A stretch of DNA of 64,000 nucleotides from Oscillospiraceae bacterium (GTDB lineage Bacteria > Bacillota > Clostridia > Oscillospirales > Oscillospiraceae), in assembly GCA_902790375.1 (NCBI GenBank), contig CADARY010000008.1, positions 24,379 to 88,378 of the forward strand. The letters are read 5' to 3'. Both the position numbers and the translations under genes were made by a program. Shown here piece after piece: positions 24,793 through 51,265 of the stretch. The notes under the pieces are model-generated. The model saw only the letters and a list, made by a program, of their open reading frames with translations, was not told the DNA's origin and did not search any database. Position 1 is the first letter of the stretch; each line of letters starts with the position of its first letter.

Positions 24793-26478
24793 ATGGAAAC
24801 CACTGTCAAAAAACGCGAATGGGTCAAGGACGCCGCCATTGTCTTTCTGGCGGTGCTGCTGGTGCTGACCTTTTTCTCCAACACGATCATGAACCGCAGT
24901 CTGCCGGAGGTTGCCACCGCAGCCGTCAGCAGCGGGTCCATCGTCGCGCGGGTCAGGGGCAGCGGCATCGTCACCGCCACCGGCAAGCAGCAGGTCAAGG
25001 CCAAGGAGACCCGCACCATCCGTTCCGTCATGGTCAAGGTGGGGCAGGAGGTCAACACGGGCGACGTGCTTTTCGTCCTCGGCGAAGGGGATGAGACGGC
25101 CCTTGAGCAGGCGATGAACACGCTTCGCTCCCTGCAGTACGACTACCGGCGCCAGGCCATGAATGTGCCCACCTACGACGGCAGCAGCTACGACCACTCC
25201 GTGGATGCCTCGTATGAGAGAATGATCCGGGCCGAGCAGGCCCGCGACAAGGCGGCCGAAGCCTATCAGCTCGCCCTCTCGCGCGACTCCGCAGGAGACG
25301 TGCAGGCCACCAGCGCGGAGATCGCCCGGGTCGAAGCGCAGCTGAAGGATGTAGCCGATCAGCTTGACACTGCGCAGGCCGCCTATGACGAGCGCGTAAA
25401 CAGAGCCTGGGAAGAGCTTTCACAGGCCGAATGGGAATACGACAATGCCGATACGTCAGGCGATATCTATGTGGATGAGGATGGCCTCATTGATGAAGGA
25501 AGCAGCGGTCAGGCAGCGTCCGGGGACAGGGACGAGCTGTGGAAAAAGGTAGAGGAAGCAAGACAGCATCTTGCCGAGGTGCAGAGCGATGTGCATCTCA
25601 GCTCCCTGCGCTCGCAGTATGACAGCCTCCTTGAGCGCTACAACACCCTGCTGCAGCACCGCGATAACTATACGCCCGACAGCGTGATCCCTTACCGGGA
25701 CGCGCTGGATACTGCGGAAGCGGAGCTCACCGACGCCCGGCTCTATTACGACGAGGCCGTCGCCGCCCGCGAGTATGCCTATCAGAATTTTGAACAGAAG
25801 GTCGCCGTCGAGCAGGTCAATCTCGCCGAGACGGCGGAGAATATCCGCATCCAGCAGGAGAAGATCAAATCCCTCGCAGGCGAGGAGGAGAACGTGGTCA
25901 GCGCCGCGGTCTCCGGCACCATCAGCACCATCGACTGCACGGCGGGCGACACGGTGCTCAAGGACGCGCTTCTGTGCACCATCGAGGTACCCGACATGGG
26001 CCACACCCTGTCCTTCTCCGTCACCAACGACCAGGCCCAGCGCCTTCGCATCGGCGACACGGCCACGGTCTCCAACTACTATTGGGGCAACAGCGTCACC
26101 GCCACCCTCACCACCATCCGCACGGACCCGAAAAACCCCCAGACCAACAAGATCCTGACCTTCGACCTGGTGGGCGACGTGACAAGCGGCGCGGAGATGA
26201 GTATCTCCGTCGGACAGAAGAGCGCCAATTATGACATCGTTGTCCCCAATTCCGCCATCAAGAGCGACTCCAACGGCAGCTTTGTCCTGCTTGTTTCGGT
26301 CAAGAGCTCGCCCCTCGGCAACCGCTACACCGCCAAGCGCGTGAGCGTTGAGGTCCTGGCAAACGATGACAACAACTCCGCCGTGGTGGCCGATCTCTCC
26401 AACGGCGACTATGTCATCACGACAAGCTCTGCCCCCGTCGCCAGCGGCGACATGGTGCGCATGGCGGACAGCGCATGA
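24793..26478 (+). CDS. HlyD/MacA-like membrane-fusion (adaptor) protein
   Basis: A 561-residue protein with one N-terminal membrane segment (about 13-31), a first half-lipoyl segment (SGIVTATGKQQVKAKET), a long helical coiled-coil hairpin (about 100-350, with repeated AE/EARQ heptads), the second lipoyl half (VVSAAVSGTISTIDCTAGD) and beta-barrel domains. Adaptors of this type couple an inner-membrane ABC protein to export, or in Gram-positives regulate MacB-type complexes. It overlaps the next gene by four bases. No ATPase gene is present in the cluster. Confidence 0.82.
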   Translation: METTVKKREWVKDAAIVFLAVLLVLTFFSNTIMNRSLPEVATAAVSSGSIVARVRGSGIVTATGKQQVKAKETRTIRSVMVKVGQEVNTGDVLFVLGEGDETALEQAMNTLRSLQYDYRRQAMNVPTYDGSSYDHSVDASYERMIRAEQARDKAAEAYQLALSRDSAGDVQATSAEIARVEAQLKDVADQLDTAQAAYDERVNRAWEELSQAEWEYDNADTSGDIYVDEDGLIDEGSSGQAASGDRDELWKKVEEARQHLAEVQSDVHLSSLRSQYDSLLERYNTLLQHRDNYTPDSVIPYRDALDTAEAELTDARLYYDEAVAAREYAYQNFEQKVAVEQVNLAETAENIRIQQEKIKSLAGEEENVVSAAVSGTISTIDCTAGDTVLKDALLCTIEVPDMGHTLSFSVTNDQAQRLRIGDTATVSNYYWGNSVTATLTTIRTDPKNPQTNKILTFDLVGDVTSGAEMSISVGQKSANYDIVVPNSAIKSDSNGSFVLLVSVKSSPLGNRYTAKRVSVEVLANDDNNSAVVADLSNGDYVITTSSAPVASGDMVRMADSA

Positions 26479-27554
26479 GCATGAGCAGACTCCTGAAACG
26501 ATGGCCCGCTGCGCTGGCGCTGCTGCTTGCGCTCCTGAGCGCCTTCTGCTTCTGGCGGATGCACGCGGTGTCCCGCCTGCTGCCGAGCCAGCAGGCGGCC
26601 GAGCGCTGGAAGGGGGACGGCGAGCGGGATTTTGCCCAGCACTCCTTCTTCCTTCCGGCCGAGGAGAAGCTTACCCGCGACCAGGTCTACAGCTTCCGCA
26701 ACGACATGCTGCAGAAGCTCAAGGGGGCCTCCTATGACATCGAGAAGGAAAAGGGCCTCTTCACCGACGCCTGGAGCCTGAGCGCCACCGTCAAGGTCAG
26801 CGCCGGGCGGCGCAGCGGGGAGGTGCAGGCCTTTGCCGTGGGCGGCAATTTCTTCGATTTTCACCCCCTGCGGCTTTTGAGCGGCAACTACCTGCGGCCC
26901 GGGGATCTGATGGAGGACCGGGTCCTCCTGGACCGGGAGACGGCGTGGCTCCTGTTCGGCGCGGTGGATCTTGCCGGAATGAGCTTTTCGATCGGCGGTA
27001 CGCCCTTTGTGGCGGCCGGTGTCTATGAGCATGAAAAGGACGGCTTTTCCAAGGCTGCCCTCACCGACGGCATGTGCATCTATATGAGCTATGACGCCTT
27101 TATCCGCCTCTTCCCCGAGAACACGGGCATCAGCTGCTATGAGCTCGTGATGGCGGAGCCGGTCAAGGGCTTTGCACACAGCGCCGCGGAGGAGAAATTC
27201 CCCGTCAAGAAGGCGGAGCTGACGGACAACAGCTACCGCTATTCCGTCGACCGGCTCTTGAAGATCCTCAAGGCCGGGAGCGCCAGATCCATGCACAAGG
27301 GCAGTACGATCTACCCCTACTGGGAAAACGCCGCCCGCGCGGCGGAGGACCGGGCCGCCCTGTGGCTTGCTGCGGGCCTCGTGTCCGGGGCCTTCCCCCT
27401 GGCGCTGGCACTGGTGGAGCTGATCCGCGGCTTCGTGCGCGGCCGCAGGAAGATGGAATCGGACGTCCTGCCCGAGGCGCAGGCCAGAGGCCGGGAGTTC
27501 ATCCGGGAGCTCAAGCGCCGCCGTTGGGAGCGCAAGCACCCGGGAGAATTTTGA
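26475..27554 (+). CDS. MacB-periplasmic-core-like membrane protein
   Basis: A 359-residue protein with an N-terminal membrane segment (about 11-28), an extracellular region resembling the MacB core (AVGGNFFDFHPLRLLSGNYL, DRVLLDRETAWLLFG, AGVYEH), and a second membrane segment near 300 with a basic tail. A normal MacB/FtsX permease has four membrane segments; this one appears to have two, so it may be a partial or accessory permease. It is coupled to the HlyD-like gene upstream. Confidence 0.65.
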   Translation: MSMSRLLKRWPAALALLLALLSAFCFWRMHAVSRLLPSQQAAERWKGDGERDFAQHSFFLPAEEKLTRDQVYSFRNDMLQKLKGASYDIEKEKGLFTDAWSLSATVKVSAGRRSGEVQAFAVGGNFFDFHPLRLLSGNYLRPGDLMEDRVLLDRETAWLLFGAVDLAGMSFSIGGTPFVAAGVYEHEKDGFSKAALTDGMCIYMSYDAFIRLFPENTGISCYELVMAEPVKGFAHSAAEEKFPVKKAELTDNSYRYSVDRLLKILKAGSARSMHKGSTIYPYWENAARAAEDRAALWLAAGLVSGAFPLALALVELIRGFVRGRRKMESDVLPEAQARGREFIRELKRRRWERKHPGEF

Positions 27555-29771: not shown

Positions 29772-30854
29772 ATGCTGAATGCCAACCGATTGTCCACCAA
29801 TATCATCGTCACCGTGCTGGTGCTGGTGATGGTCTTTCTGCTGCCCCTGCTGGACAGGCGCATCTGCGCGCGCCTCGGCGTGAACCTCCACCACGGGCTG
29901 AGCAGCAACCCGAAGGCGGACGCCCTGCTGAAGATCCGGCAGCTGATCCTCTTTGCGGTGTTTTTCGTGTATATCATGGTCTTTGCCTACCTGGTCTTCT
30001 TCTCCCGCAGCGCCTCCGAGCAGTACCTTGTGCACATCGCTCCCTTTGCCGACCTGCAGCACGCCATCAACACGGACTATGGCCCCTTTGATTTCATCGT
30101 CGCCATCTTCAAGGAGGGGGTGCAGAGCGCCTTCTCCCATGTCCGGGTGGTAAAGATCGAGGACATCACCCAGGTCTATATGAACATCATGCTCTTTGTC
30201 CCCATGGGCTATCTGCTGCCTTACGTGTTTGAGTTTTTCCGCAGCGGCTCCTGGGCCCGGCCGGTGCTGGCCTGCTTTGTCATCTCCTTCATCACGGAAA
30301 ACCTGCAGCTGATCTTCCGCCGCGGCTTCTATGACATGGACGATCTGCTGGCCAACACCCTCGGCGGGCTCATCGGGACGCTGCTCTTCATTTCGGTCGC
30401 CTATGTGGTGACGCATCCGAACTGGCGAAGAGAGCTCTTCACCCTGCGCTCCTGGCGCACAGCCGCAAAAAACGGCGCGCTCTATCCCTATGCCCGCCGC
30501 GTCGGCATCTCCCGCACGACCCTCCTGGGCACCGACGAGGGGGAGGTTTTCTTCTTCTATGTGTCCAAGCTCGGCTTCCGGCCCCGCAAACAGATCGTGC
30601 CGGAATATTCCTTCGGGACGGATTTCCTCTTTGAGCTCGGCTCTTCCCAGGTGGAGATCCACTGCTCCAATCGGCCGGACAAGCTCCAGACCCAGTATCT
30701 GACGATCTCGGCCCGGGATCTGCTGGAAATCAAAAAGCGCCTTCAGGAGCACGATATCGAGCCCGGCCCCTTCGAGCAGGACCCCTACACCGGCCAGCGC
30801 CGCGTGAGCTTCAGCGGCCCGGACGGCGTAGTCATCACGCTCCTTGAGGAATAA
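29772..30854 (+). CDS. VanZ-like membrane protein with a C-terminal VOC-like domain
   Basis: A 360-residue protein. Residues 1-225 contain about five membrane segments and the VanZ-type pattern (FVPMGYLLPYVFEFFR, TENLQLIFRRGFYDMDDLLANTLGG). Residues about 240-360 look like a vicinal-oxygen-chelate (glyoxalase/bleomycin-resistance) fold: FFYVSKLGFRPR near the start and VSFSGPDGVVITLLEE at the end. VanZ relatives are linked to lipoglycopeptide tolerance; VOC proteins bind or modify small molecules. The fusion is unusual. It ends 80 bases before the RiPP epimerase gene. Confidence 0.7.
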   Translation: MLNANRLSTNIIVTVLVLVMVFLLPLLDRRICARLGVNLHHGLSSNPKADALLKIRQLILFAVFFVYIMVFAYLVFFSRSASEQYLVHIAPFADLQHAINTDYGPFDFIVAIFKEGVQSAFSHVRVVKIEDITQVYMNIMLFVPMGYLLPYVFEFFRSGSWARPVLACFVISFITENLQLIFRRGFYDMDDLLANTLGGLIGTLLFISVAYVVTHPNWRRELFTLRSWRTAAKNGALYPYARRVGISRTTLLGTDEGEVFFFYVSKLGFRPRKQIVPEYSFGTDFLFELGSSQVEIHCSNRPDKLQTQYLTISARDLLEIKKRLQEHDIEPGPFEQDPYTGQRRVSFSGPDGVVITLLEE

Positions 30855-30934
30855 GGGAAGCGGGGTCCTGTGACAGTCGGCGGTATATGATGGGCCTATA
30901 AGCAATAAGCCGCGATCAGAAAGAAGGCACAGAC

Positions 30935-32362
30935 ATGAAAATAAAGATCAGAGACCGGATCCTCAACATGAACCTGATGGAAAAGGAGCCCCATGACCCC
31001 GAGATCGTCAGGACGGTGGCGCGGATGAAGCGCGTTGTGGAAAGGTGGAACCTGGACGCGGACTTCCGCAAAGCCTGTGAGAGCGACCCGGAAAAAACGC
31101 TCGCCGAGATAGCCCCGGATGTTGACCCGGAGGCTTTTCGCCTGCTGATCAACAAGGACGCGGCCGAGAAGCTGGTGGAAGATCTGAAGGCAGAGAAAAT
31201 CAGTGAGGAGGATATACCGGAGAGCTATGTGATCTACAAGGCGTCGGTCAGGGAAAAGATCCTGCACCGGGAGAAGCTTCGTCAGACGTACTGCGTCCCG
31301 GATGAGCCGCACTTTCGTGCCTGGCGCGAGCGGCAGCAGAAGCGCTGCTACATGGAGATGGGTCCCTCCGCCCAGCGTATGGTGCAGGCCGCGCTGATGT
31401 TTGAACTCACACTGGGCTGCTCTGTCGGCTGCCCCTTCTGCGGCGTGGCCTCCCAGGGCCTTCGCGGCATTTTCCGCTATACGGAGGAAAACGCGGCACT
31501 CTGGCGCGAGACGCTGCGCCGCATGCACGCGCTGCTCGGCGGCGCGGCAGGCCGCGGCACCTGCTACTACTCCTGCGAGGGGCTGGATAATCCGGATTAT
31601 GAAAAATTCCTCTCGGATTACTACAGCGAGTTCGGCGTCGTGCCGCAGACCACCACCGCCGCCGCCACCCGCGATATCGAACGCACCCGTGCTCTGCTGC
31701 GCTTCGCGGATGAAAACGACCCCCATATCGACCGCTTCTCCGTCATCAGTGCCGAAATGCGCGATACGATCTTCGAGGCCTTTACACCGGAGGAGCTTGT
31801 GAATGTGGAGCTGCTGCCCCAGTTTCCCGAGGCGCCGGGAAACTGCTTTGCCAAGGTCGGGCGCAACCGCGACAAGGACGATGAGGACGCTGTGGGCGGC
31901 ACCATCGCCTGCGCAAGCGGCTTCATCGTGAATATGCAGGAAAAGTCGCTGCGGCTGATGACGCCCTTCGTCTCCGACCGCGACCACCCCACCGGGGAGT
32001 GGATCCTGGAGAAATGCGCTTTCCGTTCTGCCGAGGATCTGGAAAAGCAGATGCGCCGGATGATCGAAACATACATGCCCCTGGAGCTTGACTTTGAAAA
32101 GCGCGTCGGGGCCTCCTGCGACTTCAGCCTGGAGGAGACGGACGGCAATGTCCGGGTCGGCGCACACGGTGTGCGCGTTGACATGCTGCACGCCCCCATG
32201 GCGCAGGCGGGGCTGGACACGGTGGTCACCGCGCTCAAGGCGCGCCGCTATACGGGAGACGAAATCCTGGAGCTCCTGCCGGAGGATATGAATCCTGCGC
32301 AGAGCATCCTGCTGCTCAAGCAATTATGGGATCACGGCCTGATTGATCAGGTCACAGAATAA
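30935..32362 (+). CDS. Radical SAM peptide epimerase of RiPP maturation (PoyD-like)
   Basis: A 475-residue protein. The radical SAM cluster motif is C162-SVG-C166-PF-C169, the CxxxCxxC form, in a context (ELTLGCSVGCPFCGVASQG) typical of the RiPP amino-acid epimerases that convert L- to D-residues. Residues about 28-72 resemble an NHLP/Nif11-type leader (VVERWNLDADFRKAC, DPEKTLAEI). The last 60 residues look like a winged helix (ILELLPEDMNPAQSILLLKQ). Later cysteines (C304, C326, C361, C395) are candidates for the hydrogen donor; which one is unknown. The precursor gene follows after 14 bases with its own AGGAGG. Confidence 0.85.
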   Translation: MKIKIRDRILNMNLMEKEPHDPEIVRTVARMKRVVERWNLDADFRKACESDPEKTLAEIAPDVDPEAFRLLINKDAAEKLVEDLKAEKISEEDIPESYVIYKASVREKILHREKLRQTYCVPDEPHFRAWRERQQKRCYMEMGPSAQRMVQAALMFELTLGCSVGCPFCGVASQGLRGIFRYTEENAALWRETLRRMHALLGGAAGRGTCYYSCEGLDNPDYEKFLSDYYSEFGVVPQTTTAAATRDIERTRALLRFADENDPHIDRFSVISAEMRDTIFEAFTPEELVNVELLPQFPEAPGNCFAKVGRNRDKDDEDAVGGTIACASGFIVNMQEKSLRLMTPFVSDRDHPTGEWILEKCAFRSAEDLEKQMRRMIETYMPLELDFEKRVGASCDFSLEETDGNVRVGAHGVRVDMLHAPMAQAGLDTVVTALKARRYTGDEILELLPEDMNPAQSILLLKQLWDHGLIDQVTE

Positions 32363-32376
32363 AGGAGGAAAACACC

Positions 32377-32805
32377 ATGGATCAGATCAAGAAAAACAAC
32401 ATCGCCTATGGAAAGCTTCTCAACAAATGCTGGGACGATCCGGCCTACCTTGAGAAGTTCCGTGCCGATCCCGCCGCCGCACTGAAGGAGTTCGGCATCC
32501 CCACACCGCCGAATGCGAGATACCACATCGTTGCTCCCCAGGACATGAAGCCCAGCACGAAGGAAGATGTCTACCTCTACTATATGGATAAGCCCGAAGT
32601 TACCAGTCTGAACGAAGAAACGCTCGGCAAGGTCGCCGGTGGGGTCGTGCCGACGCCGGAGCCGGAGCCGCACGAACCCATTATGGAATCCGTAGACGTC
32701 ATGACCCATGTGGAGGTGGGTACAGAAGTAGTTGCCGAGGTTGTGGCCGTCATCATGGCTGTGATTTTGGTTCTGGGCGAAGGCACGGGGGATGGAGATC
32801 AATAA
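32377..32805 (+). CDS. NHLP-leader RiPP precursor with Val/Ala-rich core (proteusin-like)
   Basis: A 142-residue precursor. Residues 1-89 match the nitrile-hydratase-like leader type: DDPAYLEKFRADPAAALKEF near 20-40, GIPTPP, and a final LNEETLGKVAGG (78-89), whose GG is the expected cleavage site. The predicted 53-residue core begins VVPTPEPEPHEP and contains EVVAEVVAVIMAVILVLG before an acidic GEGTGDGDQ tail. It has no cysteine and only five Ser/Thr (T93, S105, T110, T116, T137), so lanthionine rings are impossible and epimerisation is the natural modification. A 19-base-pair terminator follows. Confidence 0.82.
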   Translation: MDQIKKNNIAYGKLLNKCWDDPAYLEKFRADPAAALKEFGIPTPPNARYHIVAPQDMKPSTKEDVYLYYMDKPEVTSLNEETLGKVAGGVVPTPEPEPHEPIMESVDVMTHVEVGTEVVAEVVAVIMAVILVLGEGTGDGDQ

Positions 32806-32873
32806 GTATTCGGGAAAGCGACACCATACATACGACTGCGGTGATGGACTGACGAGTCTCCCGCCGCGTCAAG

Positions 32874-32920
32874 AATCAAAAGCCCCTTGCGACCAAACGG
32901 ATCGCAAGGGGCTTTTGATT
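32874..32920. terminator. Strong bidirectional terminator
   Basis: A perfect 19-base-pair stem (32874-32892 with 32902-32920) with flanking A and T runs lies between the convergent precursor and symporter genes. It closes the RiPP transcript. Confidence 0.85.
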
Positions 32921-32921
32921 C

Positions 32922-34334
32922 TTAATCCTGCCAGAAGTCTGTGTCCTTGACGCCGTTGGCGGCACCGCGGTAGGCGGGGAGCTTGCCCTTGCGCCGCTGC
33001 CACTCATAATCGCGCAGGGCGGCAATGGCGGGCTTTGCGAGGATCACGATCACCGGCACGTTGATGATGACCATTAGGCCCTGCATCATATCCGCCGAAT
33101 CCCACGCGAGACCCGCCGAGATGCAGGCGCCGGCGAAGATCAGCGCCGTTGCGCACAGGCGATAGACAAACAGGAAGGCCTTGCCCGGCTCCTTCTTCAT
33201 GATGAAGCGCAGGCAGCTCTCGGTGTAATAGTAGTTGCCGAGCAGGGTCGTGAAGGCGAACAGGCACACCGCGACCGCAATGAAGATCGCGCCGAAGCTG
33301 CCGAGGGCCGTGCGCGTGCAGGCCTGGACATAGGTGGCGCCGGCGGCTTCGGCTACAGGCTCGACCCCGGAGAAGAGGCAGAGGAAGGCCGTGGCGGAGC
33401 AGATGAGCAGCGTGTCGATGAACACGCTCAGCATCTGCACAAGGCCCTGCTTTGCCGGGTGGCTCACATCCGCGGCAGCGGCGGCATTGGGGGCGGAGCC
33501 CATGCCGGCCTCGTTGGAGTAAAGGCCGCGCTTGATGCCCCACATGACGCAGGAGCCGGTGAAGCCGCCGAGGATGGCCTGAAAATCAAAGGCGGAGCGG
33601 AAGATCCGGCCGAACACGGCGGGAAGCTGACCGAAGTTGCGGATCACGACGTAGAGGGAGATCAGCACGTACAGAATGCCCATGACGGGAACCAGCACTT
33701 CCGTGACCCTGGTCAGGCGCTTGCCGCCGCCCAGGACGCAGAAGCCGAACAGCGCCGCGAGCACCGCGCCCACGACGACGGGGGTGGACTTGGTGTAGAA
33801 GGAGAAGGTGGAGAAAACGTCCTGCGTATTATACGCCGCGAGCATATTGTAGCCCACCACGTAGGTCAGGATCAGCACGATGGCGAAGACCACGCCGAGC
33901 CAGCGCTGGCCCAGGGCCTGCTCCATGTAGTAGGAGGGACCGCCGTAGCTGCCGCCCTCGCTGTCGCGCTTCTTGTAGATCTGGGCGAGGGTGGACTCGA
34001 CAAAGGCGGAGGCGCCGCCGAGGATCGCCGTGAGCCACATCCAGAAAATGGCGCCGGGGCCGCCGAGGCAGAGGGCTGTCGAGACGCCCATGATATTGCC
34101 TGTGCCGACGCGCGACGCGGTTGAGACCATCAGCGCGCCGAAGGAGGAGGTTGCGCCGAGATTCACGGGCTTCTCCCTGACGACGCGGATGGATTCCGCA
34201 AACAGGCGGATCTGCACGAAGCGCAGCCGGAAGGTAAAATAGAGCCCTGCCAGAATCAGAAGCAGGGGCACCACATAGGGCTTGTACAAAATGCCGCTGA
34301 CAGCGTTGACTGCATTGTCGATGGATGTGAGCAT
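32922..34334 (-). CDS. Sodium:alanine/glycine symporter (AGCS family)
   Basis: A 470-residue membrane protein starting at ATG 34332-34334 after CAGGAGAAAG; the longer open frame upstream crosses the promoter. Family blocks include GTGNIMGVSTALCLGGPGAI, FWMWLTAILGGASAFVESTL, YGGPSYYMEQ and SNEAGMGSAPNAAAA. It imports small neutral amino acids with sodium. A second AGCS gene lies at 62230. Confidence 0.92.
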   Translation of the reverse strand: MLTSIDNAVNAVSGILYKPYVVPLLLILAGLYFTFRLRFVQIRLFAESIRVVREKPVNLGATSSFGALMVSTASRVGTGNIMGVSTALCLGGPGAIFWMWLTAILGGASAFVESTLAQIYKKRDSEGGSYGGPSYYMEQALGQRWLGVVFAIVLILTYVVGYNMLAAYNTQDVFSTFSFYTKSTPVVVGAVLAALFGFCVLGGGKRLTRVTEVLVPVMGILYVLISLYVVIRNFGQLPAVFGRIFRSAFDFQAILGGFTGSCVMWGIKRGLYSNEAGMGSAPNAAAAADVSHPAKQGLVQMLSVFIDTLLICSATAFLCLFSGVEPVAEAAGATYVQACTRTALGSFGAIFIAVAVCLFAFTTLLGNYYYTESCLRFIMKKEPGKAFLFVYRLCATALIFAGACISAGLAWDSADMMQGLMVIINVPVIVILAKPAIAALRDYEWQRRKGKLPAYRGAANGVKDTDFWQD

Positions 34335-37455: not shown

Positions 37456-38787
37456 ATGGCTTACGTCCAAAAGTGCTTAAGTAAAAAGACCGGTCAAGTG
37501 ATAAATTACAAATGGACAGCTCTGATCGGCAGAGATGAAAACTATAAGCAAATCAGACTCACAAAGAGAGTCGAACCCATAGGCCTTACCCCCGCAAAGG
37601 AGATGAAGGAGCAACAGGCCCGAGCTGACGAATGGGAAAAGATCGTGAGAGCCGAGTATGAGAAGGAGCATGGTACAAGCGCCGAGGAAAAGCTGAAGGC
37701 ACGTAAAGAGCGCGAACGTATTACTCTCGAATCATTTATTGATGAACACTGGATAAAAAAGCATGTCCTGAATGGAACACACACGCCTGATACTGTAGCT
37801 TTTTATAACAGCATGGCGAAAGATATAAAGACATACCTCCGGGAGCATTGCCCAGAAATCAAGCTCTCTCAGTTTGACAAGGAGGATGTGCTTGATTATC
37901 TCGCCTATATGAGAAATGAAGCCAAGACGCAGCGCGGCACCCCATACGGCAAGACTACGATACAGCACCACTTCTCGACGCTGAGAAATATACTTGAGTA
38001 TGCTGTCTATGTTGACTTTATCGCCGAGGACCCATGCAAGAAGCTGAAGCCCACAGACCGCCCCAAGAGGGAACAGAAGGAAGTTGACTTTTTGGCCCCC
38101 GATGAGGCAGTCAGATTTATGACCTGCCTGGATTCAGACGAGGAGCGGGAGTATTGGGAAAAGAATCACGGCAGCCACCTCGGGTGGAAATGCCTTGTAA
38201 ACACCCTGATCCTCACCGGCTTGCGCAGAGGTGAGCTTGTGGGCCTCCAGTGGGGCGACCTCGATCAAAAGAAGATGCTGCTGCATATCCGCCGCAATGT
38301 CACCATCGACACGAGCAACAAAGCGGAGAAGGACCCGGCGAAGAAGCTCCATATCGGCGAGCTCAAAGGAAAGGAGACGCGGAAAGTCCCGATTAGCAAG
38401 TATCTGTGCGATCTCCTGATAGCTTACAAAGGCGAGCAGGAAAAGAAGTACAGCGCGCTCTTTATGCCCAATGCCTATATCTTTTGCAGAGTAGACGATG
38501 TGTACTTGCCACTCTACCCAACGGAACCGACCCGCCTTGTGAAGAAGTTCAACCGGCGGCATAAACTCCCGGACATGTCTCCCCACGATCTACGGCACAC
38601 CGCGGCTTCCCTTGCCATAGAGAGTGGCGCAAGCGTAAAAGAAATTCAGGGCTTGCTTGGGCACAAGGACCCCAGCGTTACCCTTAAATTTTATGCCGGC
38701 TTAACAGAAAAGGCCAAGCAGCGCACGATACTCGGGATTGAGGGAATGATAAGACCAAAGAAAGAAGACGAGGAGAAAAAGGCTTAA
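37456..38787 (+). CDS. int: Tyrosine recombinase (site-specific integrase)
   Basis: A 443-residue integrase. The N-terminal 60 residues form an arm-binding-like domain, followed by the core-binding domain and the catalytic domain with Arg257 (LTGLRRGEL), H377-x-x-R380 (SPHDLRHTAA), His403 (LLGHKD) and the nucleophile Tyr413 (LKFYAG). It starts at ATG after AGGAGG, 160 bases inside attL, and presumably integrates and excises the island at tRNA-Pro. A terminator follows. Confidence 0.95.
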   Translation: MAYVQKCLSKKTGQVINYKWTALIGRDENYKQIRLTKRVEPIGLTPAKEMKEQQARADEWEKIVRAEYEKEHGTSAEEKLKARKERERITLESFIDEHWIKKHVLNGTHTPDTVAFYNSMAKDIKTYLREHCPEIKLSQFDKEDVLDYLAYMRNEAKTQRGTPYGKTTIQHHFSTLRNILEYAVYVDFIAEDPCKKLKPTDRPKREQKEVDFLAPDEAVRFMTCLDSDEEREYWEKNHGSHLGWKCLVNTLILTGLRRGELVGLQWGDLDQKKMLLHIRRNVTIDTSNKAEKDPAKKLHIGELKGKETRKVPISKYLCDLLIAYKGEQEKKYSALFMPNAYIFCRVDDVYLPLYPTEPTRLVKKFNRRHKLPDMSPHDLRHTAASLAIESGASVKEIQGLLGHKDPSVTLKFYAGLTEKAKQRTILGIEGMIRPKKEDEEKKA

Positions 38788-51188: not shown

Positions 51189-51235
51189 GTGGTCGGAGTG
51201 CGGGGATTTGAACCCCGGGCCTCTTGGTCCCGAAC
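51189..51235 (-). other. attR, within the intact tRNA-Pro gene
   Basis: The 47-bp match to attL covers the tRNA 3' half up to the edge of the anticodon loop, so the element rebuilt the tRNA 3' end on insertion. Confidence 0.9.
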
Positions 51236-51265
51236 CAAGCGCGCTACCATCTGCGCTACACCCCG
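51190..51265 (-). tRNA. tRNA-Pro (anticodon CGG)
   Basis: A 76-base gene including encoded CCA. The acceptor stem CGGGGTG/CACTCCG pairs (one G-U). The anticodon arm is CTTGG-TTCGGGA-CCAAG, giving anticodon CGG. The T arm contains GGTTCAAATCC. It is the integration target of the neighbouring element and remains complete. Confidence 0.93.

Follow-up and report, generated by a model that had tools for sequence, protein, structure and literature searches.

Among the closest known systems are the proteusin loci with PoyD-type epimerases, namely PoyA/PoyD, PlpA/PlpD, OspD and AvpD. Characterised proteusins, polytheonamide among them, carry many modifications that are introduced by several maturases. 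In the catalytic scheme given for PoyD in the relevant sections of a review, the α-hydrogen of a residue is abstracted and a cysteine returns a hydrogen from the other side (PMC8326336). The same sections report that almost 70 PoyD homologues share one strictly conserved cysteine, Cys372, proposed as the hydrogen donor, and place an RRE at the C-terminus of PoyD-type epimerases (PMC8326336). In sequence surveys, a passage of one paper counts 10 proteusin clusters in camel rumen Firmicutes (PMC9177762), and a table row for the Hungate1000 set gives 2 (PMC13289728). A search of open PMC, with subscription papers mostly outside its reach, found no description of the locus that we report here.

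This locus lies in a 64,000-nucleotide stretch (the window) of a contig from an Oscillospiraceae bacterium, and is a new, divergent proteusin locus whose family and mechanism are already known. It is composed of two open reading frames on the forward strand: 30935–32362, coding for a PoyD-type radical SAM RiPP epimerase of 475 amino acids, and 32377–32805, coding for a proteusin precursor of 142 amino acids. The positions of both, the 14 bases between them and the length of the second frame had been given in an earlier note on this DNA and are confirmed by coordinates read from the sequence. The ribosome-binding sequence AAGGAGG (32362–32368, forward strand) serves the precursor, and the convergent gap between the precursor and a sodium:alanine symporter gene holds a strong hairpin (32871–32923; −41.2 kcal/mol, z −10.1 against 200 shuffles), which is probably a bidirectional terminator ending the transcripts of both, and which a simple terminator scan did not list. 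A promoter scan of 30700–33100 gave a single sigma-70-like site, which lies beyond the 3′ end of the pair at 32983, and none 5′ of the pair. G+C across the pair is 0.57–0.64, without clear departure from the flanks. The left neighbours are an S11 peptidase gene and a VanZ/glyoxalase-like gene, and the right neighbours are the symporter, a ParB-like gene and a phosphodiester glycosidase-like gene; no known RiPP enzyme (cyclase, methyltransferase or hydroxylase) is present among the scanned neighbour genes. Epimerisation is the sole locally encoded modification of the core. Elsewhere in the window are a phage-type integrase gene (37456–38787, about 4.6 kb downstream of the pair), a tRNA-Pro (51190–51265) and adjoining HlyD-like and MacB-like periplasmic-core genes (24793–27554), which form a possible further export unit.

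The first protein matches the NCBIfam model TIGR04517 at 387.2 bits, against a cut-off of 325, with profile positions 1–446 of 446 covered; the match to Pfam Radical_SAM falls below its cut-off (16.1 vs 29.5 bits). As judged from its sequence it is by family a PoyD-type radical SAM peptide epimerase, and epimerase activity itself we infer. The CxxxCxxC [4Fe-4S]/SAM motif (C162/C166/C169; 31418–31441, forward strand) is kept in 81/81 aligned sequences, which with the family score upholds the earlier description of a PoyD-like enzyme bearing these three cysteines. The aligned set was drawn from 91 epimerase-like ORFs, copies of the window among them, by keeping those longer than 400 amino acids that are not copies of the window locus, and it includes the window enzyme. 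Besides the three motif cysteines, the only near-invariant cysteine of the window protein in this alignment is C326 (31910–31912, forward strand), which is Cys in 80/81 sequences and Ala in one. This residue is a candidate hydrogen-atom donor, and we propose it by analogy, from an alignment in which PoyD itself does not figure, as the counterpart of PoyD Cys372. The closest relative of the enzyme shows 46% identity over most of its length, 50–51% is reached over two fragments, and identity is at most 41% within alignment A1.

No solved structure of a close relative was found by sequence, and the fold was modelled with AlphaFold2 from a 40-row alignment (mean pLDDT 92.5, pTM 0.90). A Foldseek comparison of this model with the PDB gave one match under E 0.001, BtrN (5e-4), followed by the PbtF RRE 8t19 (E 7.8e-3, prob 1.00) and SpeY; ThcOx was matched at E 0.024 (prob 1.00) and the epimerase EpeE weakly, at a best E of 0.074. 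An RRE-like winged-helix domain at the C-terminus (32093–32347, forward strand) is indicated by the fold match to 8t19, by profile matches to ThcOx and LynD at residues 387–471, each of them weak (E 0.16–0.28), and by strands followed by helices that AlphaFold2 predicts in this region. The 8t19 match was reported with no aligned range.

At its other end the epimerase holds a three-helix domain that resembles an NHLP leader (30998–31123, forward strand). The model NF038399 scored 24.4 bits on this N-terminus and did not reach its cut-off of 40, and hhalign of residues 34–63 with a leader profile gave, in one comparison, a probability of 93.9% (E 1.5e-7). The hhalign input was 79/81 enzyme N-termini and 81/92 leaders, the others being dropped for a missing motif or for length; in the controls, the best E value from 20 column shuffles was 0.23 and that from seven other overlapping epimerase blocks was 0.028. 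The helices predicted by AlphaFold2 at epimerase residues 22–40, 42–50 and 52–59 correspond to those at 2–20, 22–30 and 32–38 of the precursor leader. Because TIGR04517 spans the epimerase from residue 28, the leader-like domain is probably a trait of the epimerase family, and it may be a competitor in leader binding or a regulator of it.

The second protein was identified with a profile of 91 precursors, built without the window row (a larger earlier profile had contained it) and searched against the 1110 open stretches of 30 amino acids or more in the six frames of the whole window. Its sole match, at 59.8 bits and E 1.5e-17, was ORF 32377–32805; when the precursor was shuffled 500 times, the highest score was 6.2 bits. 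In a phmmer search of 5054 ORFs from 74 loci plus the window segment, the protein matched precursors adjoining other epimerases, with a best E of 2e-12 when its own copies are excluded. The TIGR04517 score, the profile E value and the shuffle scores place the finding of an epimerase with a precursor beyond chance. The curated NHLP-leader model TIGR03793 gave 26.6 bits and fell short of its cut-off of 50.9, so it is through relatives and the predicted fold that the NHLP label, and with it the assignment of ORF 32377–32805 as a proteusin/NHLP precursor, is supported. The family-model searches that the earlier note had proposed for both proteins gave a score above the cut-off for the epimerase and one below it for the leader, and its claim of an NHLP-type leader ending in KVAGG is sustained by the motif, the relatives and the predicted fold, and not by the curated model.

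The leader is composed of 89 residues (32377–32643, forward strand), with LNEETL at −12 to −7 and KVAGG ending at residue 89; the L-x4-L element at these positions and the GG at the core boundary are seen in the window as LNEETLGKVAGG. The proteusin MprE7 likewise has L-x4-L at −12 to −7, and the same order of leader elements (PMC10858898). AlphaFold2 predicts leader helices at 2–20, 22–30 and 32–38, strands at 48–52 and 64–68 and a helix at 80–86, which reproduces the proteusin layout of helices 1–3, two strands and a short helix 4. The precursor model (22-row alignment) has a mean pLDDT of 71.5, mostly above 85 in the leader and below 50 at residues 101–137 of the core. Profile A2, in which the window is one of 22 rows, matches the solved NHLP/proteusin structures 8tb1 and 9cjx as well as nitrile hydratase alpha chains; Foldseek found nothing under E 0.001 for the precursor model, with proteusin 8tb1 at E 0.34 (prob 0.94). 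The core of 53 amino acids (residues 90–142; 32644–32802, forward strand) is Val-rich and modelled at low confidence, and contains no Cys, no Asn and five Ser/Thr. Without Cys and Asn, lanthionine rings and Asn-directed changes are unlikely. On alignment, the hydrophobic run of the core coincides with the C-terminus of other proteusin cores; after it comes a polar tail, GEGTGDGDQ (32776–32802), that is missing in most of 21 aligned relatives.

Related loci were collected by a pattern-based scan of a species-genome collection, which finds only sequences with one of six exact peptide patterns and gave 71 loci, every one of which was then examined. At least 3.5 kb was available on either side of the epimerase in 40/71, and among these 40 a precursor was detected in 36, an ABC1-like gene in 23 and a TIGR03975-like gene in 18 (the last two at >150 bits within the fetched stretch). 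The 18 loci from Selenomonadales/Veillonellaceae (L004–L018, L020, L031 and L071) resemble the window in having a homologous epimerase and, in 15/18, a detected precursor whose core has a hydrophobic end, and differ from it in having 0–4 precursors each, the aligned ones with longer leaders. A TIGR03975-like enzyme is found in 14/18, mostly directly upstream of the epimerase, one of the 14 being a contig-edge fragment and another, L016, the source of the query; it was not detected in L006, L007, L071, which holds merely an epimerase fragment, or L020, as expected for a contig that begins at the epimerase. An ABC1-like gene above 150 bits lies within the fetched stretch of 7/18 of these loci, with none in L010 and L012, where 8 kb downstream was covered. 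L006 and L007 are short Selenomonadales contigs of 7.8 kb each, so that more genes may lie past their ends. As in the window, the precursor in both adjoins the epimerase with no other RiPP enzyme detected on the contig (no TIGR03975-like or LanM-like match), and the other genes look like housekeeping on a reading of the ORFs; unlike the window, the precursor precedes the epimerase and ABC-2 exporter genes, recognised by Pfam on three ORFs, lie upstream. The compact layout therefore has precedent in sequence data and is not unique to the window.

The epimerase was found in 0/59 other genomes (36 of the genus and 23 of the order, at E 1e-20 or better), and TIGR04517 in 0/393 other genomes of the order, incomplete genomes being included in both sets. 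The flanks belong to the host genus, given that the upstream VanZ-like neighbour is present in 6/60 other congeners and a ParB-like match in 57/60, some of the latter merely weaker paralogues. Two flanking blocks, VanZ (ending at 30854) and symporter/ParB (starting at 32926), are each conserved in relatives, where they lie on separate contigs; the intervening 30855–32925 has no match longer than 80 bases in ten fetched flanking stretches, and the sequence that follows each flanking block is shared at length by one relative pair only (L117/L118). Because the flanking blocks lie apart in relatives, the locus marks a synteny break and not a defined empty site, and we claim no clean insertion. In a midpoint-rooted tree of 81 enzymes, the window epimerase (branch length 1.01) splits off first within a mostly Bacillota clade (support 99/97), whose other 30 members group together at 96/80. 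A recent transfer from Selenomonadaceae is unsupported, since the window enzyme branches outside these 30 members. An origin from phage was rejected, with a tblastn match in 0 of 50,697 phage records and none confirmed from a pattern scan of viral contigs, as was a plasmid origin: the 49 plasmid records that match are all below 60% identity, 47 from rhizobia and relatives and 2 from cyanobacteria.

The host assembly is 88.6% complete in 95 contigs, so a further pathway gene may be missing from it. Its genome contains no further copy of the epimerase (one match in total), and profile A2 finds the window precursor together with two matches at E about 0.1; weak NHLP-leader matches are also seen in 5/60 other congeners. 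Two C39 peptidase exporters are present, on contigs C8 and C20. The first is an NHLM ABC1/ABC2 pair at C8:13.3–17.7 kb, about 38 kb upstream of the epimerase and precursor on the same contig, so that NHLM exporter genes occur in the genome and are non-adjacent to the precursor; the two-gene arrangement lacking a cyclase, methyltransferase or hydroxylase, as the earlier note had it, thus holds locally and not at the level of the genome. The C8 proteins score 931 bits with TIGR03796 and 741 bits with TIGR03797, both above cut-off, the second having been scored with 35 extra N-terminal residues. Matches to C8 ABC1 at E 1e-100 or better are found in 36/60 other congeners, with best identities of 53–87%, one of them partial.

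In the C8 stretch upstream of the window (L078:8206–13629), the NHLM exporter is accompanied by a short HlyD-like protein and by a small GG-motif ORF, which adjoins it as a candidate cargo of its own. By eye, small GG-motif ORFs of differing sequence were recognised downstream of this exporter, both in the host genome and in 4/6 fetched relatives (L139, L140, L141 and L142, with none recognised in L138 and L143), which suggests that the C8 exporter is a general one for varied cargo. Their GG motifs stand near the ORF start and, again by eye, resemble that of the precursor. Several peptide families share leader ends of the GG type, as noted in the paper that also describes the association of NHLP precursors with NHLM exporters (PMC2887384), and the similarity is therefore weak support for shared export.

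We consider it probable that the pair forms a compact proteusin locus, in which the epimerase makes D-residues in the core and the remote NHLM exporter cuts and secretes the product. Epimerase and precursor would be translated from one message with the precursor second. The epimerase, with one [4Fe-4S] cluster and SAM, is predicted to take the α-hydrogen from certain residues of the core, with Val, Ile and Ala of the C-terminal hydrophobic stretch as the likeliest, and C326 would give a hydrogen back on the opposite face to leave a D-residue, a reaction expected to leave the mass unaltered unless run in heavy water. Cleavage after VAGG and secretion of the core would then fall to an NHLM exporter with a C39 peptidase, encoded elsewhere; with no exporter gene next to the pair, that on C8 is presumably the one used. 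The D-amino-acid peptide named in the earlier note is supported as the most likely main product, the epimerase being the sole local enzyme, and epimerisation itself, the absence of further core modification and any biological activity are what we infer. A broader proposal, which we offer tentatively and hold to be rather doubtful, is that a minimal module of cargo and epimerase joined a lineage with a general exporter of GG peptides. In this proposal a linear peptide, modified solely by alternating L- and D-residues along a hydrophobic stretch of membrane length, would amount to a stripped-down membrane-active D-peptide, and the enzyme's copy of the three-helix leader fold could rival the leader for the enzyme's RRE or modulate how the leader binds there.

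The main alternative chemistry is that of a scattered pathway, in which the TIGR03975 enzyme on C20 acts in trans and the core receives C-methyl groups as well as D-residues. This enzyme, a radical SAM C-methyltransferase at 506 bits, is the single one found in the genome, and the frequent company that its homologues keep with the epimerase in the 18 Selenomonadales/Veillonellaceae loci counts in favour of such a partnership; together with a LanM-like enzyme encoded nearby, it could act on the precursor in trans. The C20 enzyme has a nearer substrate, however, since it sits in its own cluster (L079:2644–13637) together with a small Nif11-type protein (at 23.3 bits, a little short of its cut-off of 23.8), the LanM-like synthetase, an FMN reductase, a HlyD-like protein and NHLM-type transporters, whose two ABC proteins each score below the curated cut-off, at 826 against 853 bits and 617 against 709 bits. 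The precursor and epimerase of L006 and L007 also stand on their short contigs without a detected homologue, and we regard C-methylation in trans as unlikely.

It is less likely again that a larger cluster lost its exporter and other enzymes and left the pair behind as a silent remnant with no product. Such decay would fit the lack of an adjacent exporter, the position of the flanks at a synteny break and the absence of the pair from 36 other genomes of the genus and 23 of the order, but both reading frames are intact and the catalytic cysteines retained, with a strong ribosome-binding sequence before the precursor and a strong hairpin 3′ of the pair. We find it very improbable that the 142-residue protein is instead a small nitrile-hydratase-like protein with another role. 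The weak matches to nitrile hydratase alpha models and the sub-threshold NHLP score would allow this reading, against which stand its resemblance to precursors adjoining other epimerases, its GG motif and a low-confidence, Val-rich core that aligns with other proteusin cores.

A compact proteusin locus served by a remote exporter accordingly remains our preferred reading, and the distant exporter and single-enzyme layout make it a convenient test case and not a new kind of system. With the epimerase as sole local enzyme, what D-residues alone do, chemically and biologically, could be measured, and so small a locus is readily reconstructed in a laboratory host. The arrangement also suggests that a RiPP locus may look incomplete when its exporter lies far off, and that proximity-based genome mining would miss it. 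Among other peptide epimerases, those of the epipeptides (EpeE/YydG) are alike in the radical SAM epimerisation of Val/Ile in a peptide; EpeE differs in having two Fe-S clusters and a peptide with a short leader, according to the relevant section of PMC8326336, and is only a weak fold match. Compared with the known proteusin loci, the window has no neighbouring methyltransferase, hydroxylase or arginase among the scanned genes, its exporter is remote, its core ends in a polar tail, and its enzyme forms a deep branch in a mostly Bacillota clade.
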